A DNA stretch of 64,000 bases from Methanofollis tationis. GTDB lineage: Archaea > Halobacteriota > Methanomicrobia > Methanomicrobiales > Methanofollaceae. The notes under the pieces are model-generated. The model ran no database searches, was not told the origin of the DNA, and saw only the letters and a list, made by a program, of their open reading frames with translations. Positions 16,241-49,890 of this stretch are shown piece after piece; the first letter of the stretch is position 1; every line of letters starts with the position of its first letter. A program made the translations under genes and the position numbers. The stretch lies in the NCBI RefSeq assembly GCF_013377755.1, contig NZ_JABXWR010000001.1, positions 507,104-571,103 of the forward strand. Reading direction: 5' to 3'.

Positions 16241-16956
16241 TGCCTATGATGATCTTTCCTGCGGTGGATATCCTCGGCGGCCGGTGCGTCCAGCTCGTGC
16301 AGGGGCGGCGGGAGACGGCGACGTCCTATGGCACTCCCCTGGAAAACGCCCGCAAATGGCTCGATGCCGGCGCCGATGCCCTCCACGTGATCAACCTGGA
16401 CGGGGCGTTCGGCAGCGCCGGGGCGAACGCGGAGATGATCAGGGAGTTGATCAGGGAGACCGGCGTCTTCGTGGAGCTCGGCGGCGGGATCCGGAGTCGG
16501 GAGGACGCCCGCGCCTGGCTGGAGATCGGAGTGGGCCGGGTGATCCTGGGGACGGTCGCCATCCGCGAGCCCGAGGTGGTCCGCGACCTCTCCCTCGAGT
16601 TCGGCCCCGGGCATGTTATGGCCGGCGTGGATGCGAGGGACGGGCGGGTCGTGATCGAGGGCTGGCAGGAGGAGGCGGGCGACTACCTCTCCTGGGCCGA
16701 GCGCTTCGAACTCCTGGGTGCGGGCTCGCTCCTCTTTACCAACGTGACGGTGGAGGGGCTCTGCCGCGGGATCGAGGCCGGGCCGGTGGCGCGGCTCCTC
16801 GAACGGACACGCCTGCCGGTCGTAGTGGCCGGCGGGGTGTCGAGCGCCGCCGACGTCCGGGCCCTGCGGGACCTCGGGGTTTCGGGGGCGGTGCTGGGGT
16901 CGGCGCTGTACAGCGGGAAGATCACGATTGAAGAGGCACTGGAGGCGGCGCGATGA
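16240..16956 (+). CDS. hisA: Phosphoribosylformimino-5-aminoimidazole carboxamide ribotide isomerase
   Basis: TIM-barrel isomerase of the histidine pathway, 238 residues. [17 protein letters not shown] carries the first catalytic aspartate, VNLDGAFGS-like INLDGAFGS and [10 protein letters not shown] the phosphate-binding half-barrel, and [14 protein letters not shown] plus [13 protein letters not shown] the second half with its catalytic aspartate (TNVTVEG region). Start at ATG 16240 overlapping the hisG stop; ends with ATGA overlap into hisB. Confidence 0.94.
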
Positions 16957-17534
16957 GGACGGGAAGCGTGGAGCGTAAGACGAAGGAGACGGCGATCAGT
17001 CTCGTGATCGGGCTGGACGGGGAAGAGGAGATCGCGGTCTCGACCGGGCTTCCCTTCCTGGACCACATGCTCAATGCGTTTGCAAAGCACGGCGGTTTCT
17101 CTCTCAGGGTGGAGGCGGCGGGCGACCTCCAGGTCGACGCCCACCACCTGGTCGAGGACGTCGGGATCGTGCTCGGCACGGCTATCCGCGAGGCGGTCGG
17201 CGAGGGGCGCGGGATCGCCCGGTTCGCGAACGCCGCCATACCGATGGACGAGGCGCTCGCCGAGGTGGCGATCGACGTCGGCGGCCGCGGTTACCTGGTC
17301 TTCTCCGGGTCGTTCAACACTCCCGCAACCGGCGGGATCGACACCAGCCTCTTCGAGCACTTCTTCGGGAGCCTCTGCAGCCGCGCCGGGATCACGGCCC
17401 ACATCCGCTTCTACGGCCGAAACGATCACCACATGGCCGAGGCGGTCTTTAAGGCCTTCGGGGTCGCCCTGGGGCGTGCGGTCGCCGTCGATCCCCGGAA
17501 GACCGGGGTGCCGAGCACGAAAGGAACGCTCTGA
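16953..17534 (+). CDS. hisB: Imidazoleglycerol-phosphate dehydratase
   Basis: 193-residue stand-alone IGP dehydratase (no phosphatase domain), converting imidazole glycerol phosphate to imidazole acetol phosphate. The Mn-binding histidine-rich motifs are [33 protein letters not shown] and [12 protein letters not shown], complete for the metal centre. Last gene of the metK-hisGAB unit; a T-rich tract follows the stop. Confidence 0.96.
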
Positions 17535-17543
17535 ATATAATCC

Positions 17544-17557
17544 CTTTTTTCTTTTCT
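17544..17557 (+). terminator. T-rich terminator after hisB
   Basis: ccctTTTTTcTTTTc-type tract right behind the hisB stop codon on the coding strand, suited to archaeal factor-independent termination. Confidence 0.55.
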
Positions 17558-17644
17558 GATCCTGTTCACCGTGCGTCCCGGTCCTATCGCCCTCCCCGGG
17601 TCGTCGCCGCCGGTCCCCGGGCAGAGGTACACCTGATTTCCCGC

Positions 17645-17693
17645 TCCTCACGCTGCCCGCCGGGGGCAGAGCCCCCGGCGGGCAGCGTGGGGA
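17645..17693. repeat. Perfect long GC hairpin (19 bp arms, 3 nt loop)
   Basis: Bases 17649-17667 are the exact reverse complement of 17671-17689, with only AGA between them; allowing one T-G pair, the stem grows to 23 bp (17645-17667 / 17671-17693). It is about 90 nt downstream of the hisB T-tract, not positioned as a terminator. The right arm and the following ggaaggcgggggac resemble the sequence at 49351-49386 (29 of 36 positions the same), so it belongs to a dispersed element. Confidence 0.85.
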
Positions 17694-17974
17694 AGGCGGG
17701 GGACCGGTACGCCCGGATGGAGAGAGAACCTGAACACGGCATGCCGGGGACTGACTGCAGGGAGGGGATCATGTCGGAATCACCCACATGAAACAGCGAA
17801 GAGCCATAGGGTGAGATTTTCTCCAGATCTCCTGAAGGGGATGCCGTTCCGTAGGGTCCCGTCCTCTCTCCGCTCGCCTGAACAGAGTTCCGTGCGCTCA
17901 GCTCAGGCACAAACACATCAAAACAGAATGATCATCAACGATTGTGAGAATGTCGTCTGAGAAAAGAGGTGAGT

Positions 17975-18181
17975 TCAGGCGGACTTTGCCGCGAGTTCTA
18001 CATCCTCTTCCTTGATCGTCTTGCGGCCAGCGTGCTGGGCGAGGCGGTTTGCTTCCTTGGTCAGGTTGGCAATGTACACTTCGGCCTTTGCGACAAGTGC
18101 CGCTGCTGCATCGCTGCCGACTCTCTCTGCACCGTTCTTCTTGGCGATTCTGACAACCGCTGCAATTGGTAAGTCTGCCAT
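17975..18181 (-). CDS. Archaeal histone
   Basis: 68-residue DNA-wrapping protein of the HMf/HTa-free archaeal histone family: one histone fold of three helices, beginning MADLPIAAVVRIAKKNGAER and ending with the family's RKTIKEEDVELAA. The dimer-forming central helix (DAAAALVAKAEVYIANLTKEA) is intact and there is no tail. Single-gene unit with its own palindromic TATA box and GAGGT ribosome binding site (reading on the minus strand, 18189-18193). Expected to be highly expressed. Confidence 0.97.
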   Translation of the reverse strand: MADLPIAAVVRIAKKNGAERVGSDAAAALVAKAEVYIANLTKEANRLAQHAGRKTIKEEDVELAAKSA

Positions 18182-18216
18182 GTCTAATTACCTCTAAAAT
18201 AACACTTTCTCGAAGA

Positions 18217-18228
18217 CTATTTAAATCT
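18217..18228 (-). promoter_or_regulatory. Histone gene promoter (palindromic TATA)
   Basis: ATTTAAAT at 18219-18226 is its own reverse complement and lies about 40 nt upstream of the histone ATG (18181). With a start some 25 nt downstream, the leader is about 15 nt and includes GAGGT, a good ribosome binding site. A purine-rich BRE-like gagaaag precedes it on the minus strand. Confidence 0.65.
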
Positions 18229-18366
18229 TTCTCATTTGCCTCGTCAGAACGGCTCTGGATGCCATATCCAGAAGGGATGCATCGTGCACATGCTGTTTGC
18301 ACCAAGCATCTTCGATAAAAAATTAGATTAATTTTAAAGGGCCTATTTTAAAAAATAAACAATAAT

Positions 18367-19119
18367 TTAAGGGTTTTTCTTTTTGGCCATCGATGCGGCG
18401 AGGAGAGCGGCACCGGTGTAATCTGGCGAGGCGCGCGACGTATCCACAAAGATCCTGTTGATATTGACCACCGGCGCCCCATGCCCCGCCCCCCGACCCA
18501 GGAACGTCAGCGTCCGAAAGATCAGGTTGCCTGAGATGCCATCCGGGGCGATCACCACGCCGCATTCTTTCACGGCGTCCTCGATGAGGATCTCCCGGTG
18601 CTCGGCGTTTCCGAGGTGGGCGGCGAGTTCGGCGTCGGCCATGGAGCGGTCCACCGCCGGGTGCCGCCCCAGGTCGCCGAACCGCCCGCCCGAGAGCACG
18701 GCCACCCGGTCGGAGAGGCCGAACGAGGTGGCAATCGCCCGCCCTTTTTCGATCAGGGCAAGTTTCTCCTGAACGGTCCACCCCTCGTCGACGCCTACCG
18801 GCGCAAGCAGGAAGCGCACGCCGTCGGCAGTCTCCAGCAGGGCGATCCGCTCAAGATGATCGACGCCACAGGCCCTCTTCAGGCATCTGAGGGTCTCGTT
18901 CGCGGGGAGGGTGCCCCGCACTGCCGCATCGATCCTCCCGGCCATCAGATCGGCAATAAGCGCCTCCCACGGGCATTCGCTCTCGCGCTTCTCGACCAGG
19001 GGGTATGCGTCCATCGCCCCGGGGCGGCAGTAGCAGACGATCCGCACCTGCGACCCCGCCCGCTCCACCGTCCGGGCGACCTTATCTGGTTCGCCCCCGG
19101 CGCCGATCCCGACGATCAT
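18367..19119 (-). CDS. mtxX: Methanogenesis marker protein 4 (MtxX)
   Basis: 250 residues. The MtxX/Mmp4 family is found in methanogens and is related in fold to phosphate acetyl/butyryltransferases; a methyltransferase role has been suggested by name but is not established. Here the N-terminal IVGIGAGGEPDKV, the FLLAPVGVDEGWTVQEKL centre and the ISGNLIFRTLTFLGRGAGHGAP stretch (family C-terminal core) are visible. Its ATG overlaps the mmp2 stop codon (ATGA), so the two markers are made together. Confidence 0.88.
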   Translation of the reverse strand: MIVGIGAGGEPDKVARTVERAGSQVRIVCYCRPGAMDAYPLVEKRESECPWEALIADLMAGRIDAAVRGTLPANETLRCLKRACGVDHLERIALLETADGVRFLLAPVGVDEGWTVQEKLALIEKGRAIATSFGLSDRVAVLSGGRFGDLGRHPAVDRSMADAELAAHLGNAEHREILIEDAVKECGVVIAPDGISGNLIFRTLTFLGRGAGHGAPVVNINRIFVDTSRASPDYTGAALLAASMAKKKNP

Positions 19120-49260: not shown

Positions 49261-49350
49261 ACCCGCGCGCAGGATAGGTGGGGATACGGCCCGCTCCCCC
49301 CGGACATCCGGTTCGCTCTTCCCGGGGTTCATCCGCTCCAATTGGGTGAA

Positions 49351-49386
49351 ACCCCCGGCAGGCAGTAGGGGGAAGGCGGGGGATCC
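49351..49386. repeat. Second copy of the hairpin-associated repeat
   Basis: acccccggcaggcagt followed by agggggaaggcgggggatcc matches the right arm and downstream flank of the palindrome at 17671-17706 at 29 of 36 positions. The left arm is not preserved here, so the hairpin itself is lost or was never present. Confidence 0.55.
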
Positions 49387-49480: not shown

Positions 49481-49890
49481 TAGTATCCCTCGCGGAAGAG
49501 CGATCACTTCACGAAGGAAACGCCATAGATATTCTGATCTGGCGTGCCTGTGCCGGAGACGTCGTCCCTCCCCTCACGATTGGGCCGGGAAGGCAGGGTG
49601 AGATCCAGACGGGGTTACGCCCACCTCCATCCAACCACCGTTTGGCGGGGCAACCGGCCCCCCCCGGCACCGGCGTATCAGGTCGATCCAGATTGCCGGG
49701 GGAAGTAAGACGGGGGTGGTGCGGCCACCCACGCACAGGAGCGAAGGGCCATTTTTCCCTCAGCCAGAACCATTCTCGCCGTCATAGATGCGAGAAGCCT
49801 GAAAAGAGCGTGTGTGCCCTCTCATGACCCGTGGCCGTCGGCATGGGAGAGAGGCGATTCCTGGCAGGAGAGGAGGGCGGCAGAACGTAT

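Follow-up and report, generated by a model that had tools for sequence, protein, structure and literature searches.

Several repeats described in other prokaryotes come close to the DNA discussed here. The ISMac21 MITE of Methanosarcina acetivorans, assigned to the ISL3 family, is described as 179 bp long and present in six copies, with an inverted repeat of 22 and a direct repeat of 7 (PMC3852290). REP, BIME and REPIN elements have been described together with RAYT transposases (PMC2817692; PMC3116915), and REPs have been treated in archaea as well (PMC12306157). Finally, the rPQS repeats of Methanomicrobiaceae are presented as recurrent, GC-rich spacer repeats of G-quadruplex/hairpin type, about half of which lie tail-to-tail (PMC8044849).

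The Methanofollis element described below is a new member of this known kind of MITE/REP-like mosaic repeats, and the palindrome by which it came to attention, between hisB and an archaeal histone gene, is most likely a neat example of familiar repeat biology and not an element of a novel type. We consider it highly probable that this palindrome is a fusion scar, left where two copies of a mobile intergenic repeat, partly carried by MITEs, were joined in opposite orientation. No report of a high-copy MITE/hairpin family in Methanofollis was found in the limited set of open-access articles searched.

The window, i.e. the whole 64-kb stretch of DNA analysed (G000:C1:507104-571103), holds the palindrome at 17645-17693. 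Its arms of 23 nt (17645-17667 and 17671-17693) are 96% complementary and lie 3 nt apart; the inner 19 bp of the stem are perfect and the single wobble is a G-T pair between T17648 and G17690. The inverted-repeat listing, in which the palindrome is the strongest of 19 entries (arm distances up to 60), bears out the coordinates and the pairing around AGA given by the first-pass annotation. The palindrome is far above chance expectation. RNA folding of 17630-17710 gives -72.4 kcal/mol vs -39.0 (SD 3.5) in 200 shuffles (z -9.6), DNA folding of the palindromic 49-mer gives -33.6 (z -9.95), and only ~9e-7 perfect 19-bp stems with a 3-nt loop are expected per random window of the same composition. 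The first-pass annotation was also right to place the palindrome well behind the hisB T-tract, which lies at 17545-17555, ~90 nt upstream, and to see no terminator in it: an intrinsic-terminator scan of 17400-18300 on both strands, scored by a bacterial-type consensus only, gave no site (shuffle mean 1.2) and no T-run after the hairpin. An Rfam search of 17000-18800 at E<=1 returned five matches, all far under gathering scores, and microRNA, snoRNA and PrrB/RsmZ families, represented by sub-threshold matches only, were rejected as the identity of the palindrome.

Thirty-nine aligned copies, hand-chosen from eight genomes, have one common anatomy, in which two unlike arms surround a core and the outer ends read GCCTTCCC ... 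GGGAAGGC. The core, CCGGGGG-loop-CCCCCGG, is self-complementary and is bordered on one side by the A-arm (CCAATCG or CTATCG ... GGGGGT) and on the opposite side by the C-arm (CGGGCAGCGTG or similar). In a normal copy, the core and the outer ends pair and the intervening arms pair poorly. The palindrome and its surroundings break down as follows.

16953-17534, plus strand: hisB (imidazoleglycerol-phosphate dehydratase), the left neighbour, reading towards the palindrome; Pfam PF00475 (IGPD), E 1.1e-61
17535-17666, minus strand: left half; spacer orthologous to that of G005, running into the C-arm of a repeat copy that is older and on the minus strand
17645-17693, no strand: the palindrome, with its 23-bp stem and AGA loop, built as C-arm/core/C-arm (inverted-repeat listing, RNA and DNA folds)
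17660-17666, no strand: junction tract CCGGGGG, common to both parents and holding the fusion point
17660-17805, plus strand: right half; a plus-strand MITE without its 5' half, extending from the hairpin core to the 3' end
17783-17805, plus strand: 3' terminal inverted repeat of the MITE, CCCACATGAAACAGCGAAGAGCC, from pattern matches; the matching 5' end is absent here
17806-17813, no strand: ATAGGGTG, adjoining the 3' end and presumed, from 12 two-ended copies, to be the right copy of an 8-bp target duplication
17975-18181, minus strand: archaeal histone gene, the convergent right neighbour; Pfam PF00808 (CBFD_NFYB_HMF), E 2.1e-15

The two halves have different parents. The right half belongs to a young MITE copy, identical to the one at locus L017 at 144 of 146 aligned bases, besides a one-base difference in loop length, and to the copy at L022 at 141 of 145; both of these copies have normal A-arms on their left. 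The left flank is 86% identical by BLAST (spacer query 1-267, up to 17666) to G005, the closest relative of this genome, whose hisB-histone spacer carries a complete minus-strand A/C copy consisting of a C-arm, the core GGGGGTTGCACCCC and then the A-arm ATTGGAGCGGATTGGACCGGGAAGGC. According to the alignments with G005, the C-arm of the older copy is the reverse complement of 17645-17666. Homology between G005 and the right flank of the window restarts at 17811. Since left-parent homology ends at 17666 and right-parent homology begins at 17660, the parents meet within 7 bases of the core and the fusion point lies within this tract. The left flank beyond the palindrome is not significantly like the MITE 3' module (39 of 500 shuffles reach its score), and the old copy is therefore recognised by its hairpin only. 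The window copy itself is a truncated MITE derivative with a 3' end only, the left copy of the target duplication having presumably been lost together with the 5' half.

Elsewhere in the window, far from the palindrome, the end-pattern search found a sole 5'-end-like match, a lone ISL3-type end (GGCCCTTCGCTCCTGTGCGTGGGTGG) at 49723-49750 on the minus strand. It lies near a second, degenerate relative of the family, an A/C-type hairpin at 49316-49377 on the plus strand.

With both parents in hand, we infer the order and mechanism of their joining as follows. An old minus-strand copy was present behind hisB in the common ancestor with G005, as the locus in that genome shows, and a plus-strand MITE with ISL3-type ends would have inserted just downstream of it, as suggested by its intact 3' end at 17805. 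The core is almost identical to its own reverse complement, so that inverted copies have a short direct repeat in common at this point. A deletion between both cores, via slippage or short-homology recombination, may then have taken out both A-arms and the intervening DNA, leaving a C-arm/core/C-arm product with its pairing lengthened from 8 to 23 bp. The same product would result from gene conversion or ectopic recombination. The arrangement needed for a C/C fusion, i.e. a minus copy with a plus copy after it, is found in the hisB spacer of G002 (~313 and ~916 bases behind hisB, respectively). Counting against fusion, however, the eight site bases in G005 agree with ATAGGGTG at only five of eight positions, and simple recombination predicts equal numbers of A/A and C/C cores, whereas 7 and 18 were found.

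The MITE from which the right half derives was defined from two-ended copies, sought within the loci already examined, where 12 were found in this genome. Allowing a few mismatches, their left end reads GGCTCTTCGCT then ACTGTGTG or CCTTTGTG then TGGGTAGCC, and their right end is the 3' repeat listed above. The 8-bp target duplications agree at 8/8 positions in seven copies, 7/8 in four and 6/8 in one. Nine copies measure 342-391 bp, the others being 312, 585 (with two hairpins) and 1485 bp long (with a nested IS), and ten of the 12 (312-391 bp) are too short to have a transposase of their own. The 1485-bp copy (L040/L254, G000:C1:263977-265461), which encodes a 316-aa transposase with DUF772 and DDE_Tnp_1 domains, was rejected as an autonomous partner in favour of a MITE holding a nested IS. 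IS1595 (PF12762) was rejected as the partner family as well, with none in this genome (0/1). At up to three mismatches, the end pattern occurs 34 times in G000 and at most three times in any other genome, and it is present in 6 of the 12.

One insertion can be compared with uninterrupted relatives. At L039 (G000:C1:152510-152821), a MITE with an exact 8-bp duplication lies inside a frame that is ‘permease-like’ by a reading of the peptide, not by a database match, and that is open again across the joined flanks. Alignments cross the joint in 4 of 11 relatives (G001, G003, G005 and G008), with only ~20 bases left of it, and G005 and G008 have a further ~400 bases of the host gene more to the left; five other relatives align on the right only, G007 on the left only and G010 not at all. 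To judge from these alignments, this appears to be an empty site, within a gene that has undergone other changes as well.

The ends are shared with ISL3-family insertion sequences. In public genomes the end pattern marks at least 118 stretches, and among those listed 17 have an ISL3 transposase relative within 400 bases of the end, 42 extend for fewer than 300 bases inside the end and 59, with 300 or more, show no transposase match within 400. Two ends 1.2-1.4 kb apart occur in nine listed stretches, eight of which (all but L145) contain an ISL3 transposase; in L136 the ends are 1384 bp apart and flank a transposase matching Pfam DDE_Tnp_ISL3 (PF01610, E 1.4e-61). Shorter two-ended elements lacking a transposase are listed too, including 177-179-bp elements in five Methanosarcina stretches (L152, L171, L205, L206 and L214). 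The ISL3 transposase PF01610 was found in none of the 12 genus genomes (the control was positive in 4 of 14) and the MITE therefore looks like an orphan in Methanofollis.

How does this element compare with the systems introduced above? With the ISMac21 MITE, as far as its description goes (PMC3852290), it has in common that it is non-coding and multicopy, with ISL3-type ends and target duplications of about the same length, and the end pattern used here bounds the 177-179-bp Methanosarcina elements just mentioned. In contrast to what is described for that MITE, the Methanofollis elements are mostly 342-391 bp long, carry an A/core/C hairpin module and occur in genomes none of which retains an ISL3 transposase. 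The likeness to REP, BIME and REPIN elements, in the features reported for them, lies in short extragenic palindromes that can number 100 or more per genome and form mosaics of inverted units (PMC2817692; PMC3116915). Unlike these, as described, the Methanofollis family has MITE ends with 8-bp duplications (12 copies) and, by eye, lacks a GTAG at the foot of the stem in the copies aligned. A RAYT as its driver is unsupported, in that Y1_Tnp occurs in 6 of 12 genomes with a distribution that does not follow hairpin number, being absent from G004 and G007 (>100 exact cores each); the single Y1_Tnp match in G000 has a TAG inside. The rPQS repeats, as presented, resemble the family in being GC-rich, hairpin-capable spacer repeats of the same archaeal family with a similar tail-to-tail bias, but their motif is different, consisting of four G-runs (1 / 3-5 / A spacing) plus C3TC3 (PMC8044849). 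This motif was found nowhere in the window and once in the scanned G000 and genus loci, where it is not the core of the Methanofollis family.

The first-pass annotation had suggested counting copies across the genome, a solitary copy being taken as a sign of chance or of an assembly artefact. The count is positive for the family, which is dispersed and high-copy, with seven places in the genome at one mismatch; the exact palindrome core occurs in a single copy in G000, at this site. At up to three mismatches the 21-mer core gives 14 matches at 13 places, the window core matching on both strands (a reversed control pattern gives 1). BLAST with a 181-base unit taken around another copy yields 64 pieces in G000 (52 at E<=0.001), among which are the query's self-match and some that cover flank alone, without the hairpin. 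Across 12 Methanofollis genomes (a family-level search gave the same 12) there are 446 exact-core A/C copies, ranging between 0 and 119 per genome (none in the control), with over 100 exact cores in three relatives.

The locus L007 (G000:C1:643260-643756) contains a tandem series of hairpin units, of which the leading two are 99% alike and repeat at 196 bp and a third comes after them; this hints that longer modules have been amplified locally. At other genus loci (L269-L271, L281 and L282) the C-arm is followed by outer modules of several kinds. One of these, seen in G001 and G004, terminates in about GTGAGGNTTTCTACANGGCC and may mark the terminus of a second MITE family.

Long and perfect stems of this sort had been taken to argue for active maintenance or recent spread. 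Spread is borne out for the family, by the near-identity of the right half to another MITE and by the exact duplications flanking seven of the 12 copies with two ends. Maintenance of the palindrome finds no support, since each arm derives from a different copy, one of them old and on the opposite strand; the perfect stem is therefore best taken for a fusion scar and not for something that selection has kept.

Fused cores recur. Exact C/C cores total 18 and are spread over 6 of the 12 genomes (none in the control). Twelve of the cores have, by eye, two recognisable C-arms with different sequences and outer modules; the palindrome in the window, with its degenerate left arm, is a thirteenth case, and in the remaining five one arm is, by eye, not a C-arm. 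A/A cores number seven, by difference of two counts, so that C/C and A/A together account for 25 of 471 exact cores. It is conceivable, though we think it unlikely, that the self-complementary core is a recurrent point of arm exchange, at which opposite copies trade or fuse arms, possibly with the help of an unrecognised recombinase or of hairpin cutting and not through slippage alone. If this were true, a single 20-bp palindrome would be the place where the mosaic family breaks and is rejoined as it evolves. At least one A/C core, at G004:C1:526259-526279, has the loop TCT, not AGA, relative to its arms, as if it had been flipped.

Could the hairpin instead be functional, i.e. a transcript 3'-end, mRNA-stability or protein- or histone-binding element under selection between hisB and the histone gene? 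This is quite unlikely in our estimation, although several observations speak for it. Of 39 loci chosen in G000 (30 from BLAST and 9 hand-picked), 35 could be placed, the other four being unclassified (three) or ‘inside?’ (one), and 23 of the 35 lie between convergent genes. Expressed per spacer, with 29 spacers merged by eye, this is 18 of 29 against 27% of intergenic bases in the window (binomial ~8e-5), figures that depend on crude gene calling, which misses HisA and the histone in the window, and on a background of one window. However, selection against insertions into promoters would give the same bias, which fits tolerance away from promoters as well as a gene-end role; we favour tolerance. 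Pairing is also well kept in the 39-copy alignment, with 93.8% of cells paired over core and ends and 97.1% over the core alone, and the percentage paired, the double-change cells and the covariation score exceed those of all 500 shuffles, although the shuffles ignore relatedness. Yet double changes occur in only 1 of 16 pairs, below the shuffle mean of 1.7, namely in the loop-closing pair, which alternates between C-G and T-A (15 cells), and no pair of the outer stem has any. A hairpin also recurs in this spacer: hisB and the histone gene lie next to each other in the nine relatives whose contig carries both, and minus-strand A/C copies, from one insertion or several, sit between them in G002, G005, G006 and G009. 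Nevertheless, a pattern search detected no family hairpin in the spacers of G001, G003, G010 and G011, which is weak evidence of absence because the pattern misses degenerate copies, among them those of G005 and G009 known from alignments. Finally, no T-run follows the hairpin and the exact C/C core is unique to this site in the genome, and for the 23-bp stem itself we see no sign of a job or of selection.

A technical origin is very unlikely too. A polymerase or an assembler might have skipped the stretch between two cores, in which case the chromosome would hold two complete copies. GC hairpins are a known obstacle to sequencing, and in a Methanofollis liminatans assembly three of the six gaps reported are associated with secondary structure (PMC3409199). 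Against this, the window contains no N, and C/C cores recur in six genomes, with 11 of the 18 in the single-contig assemblies G001 and G004. Moreover, a fold-back would give mirror-image flanks, whereas the flanks differ.

Quasi-palindrome correction, in which an imperfect hairpin is made perfect by a replication fork copying one arm from the other, turns imperfect palindromes into exactly such perfect ones and would account for the identity of both arms over the inner 19 bp, but it is highly improbable here: the left arm corresponds to the minus-strand C-arm of G005, running on into the orthologous hisB flank, and must therefore have been a C-arm beforehand, the right half is near-identical to a MITE down to its 3' end, and the arms differ beyond the inner 19 bp.

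We thus return to fusion of two copies as the origin of the palindrome. The repeat family to which both belonged is probably selfish DNA, tolerated in spacers and especially between convergent genes. What the hisB-histone spacer illustrates is that a long perfect palindrome can arise by the joining of two imperfect mobile hairpins, with an orthologous locus as a witness to the event, and that the perfection of a palindrome is no proof of selection.
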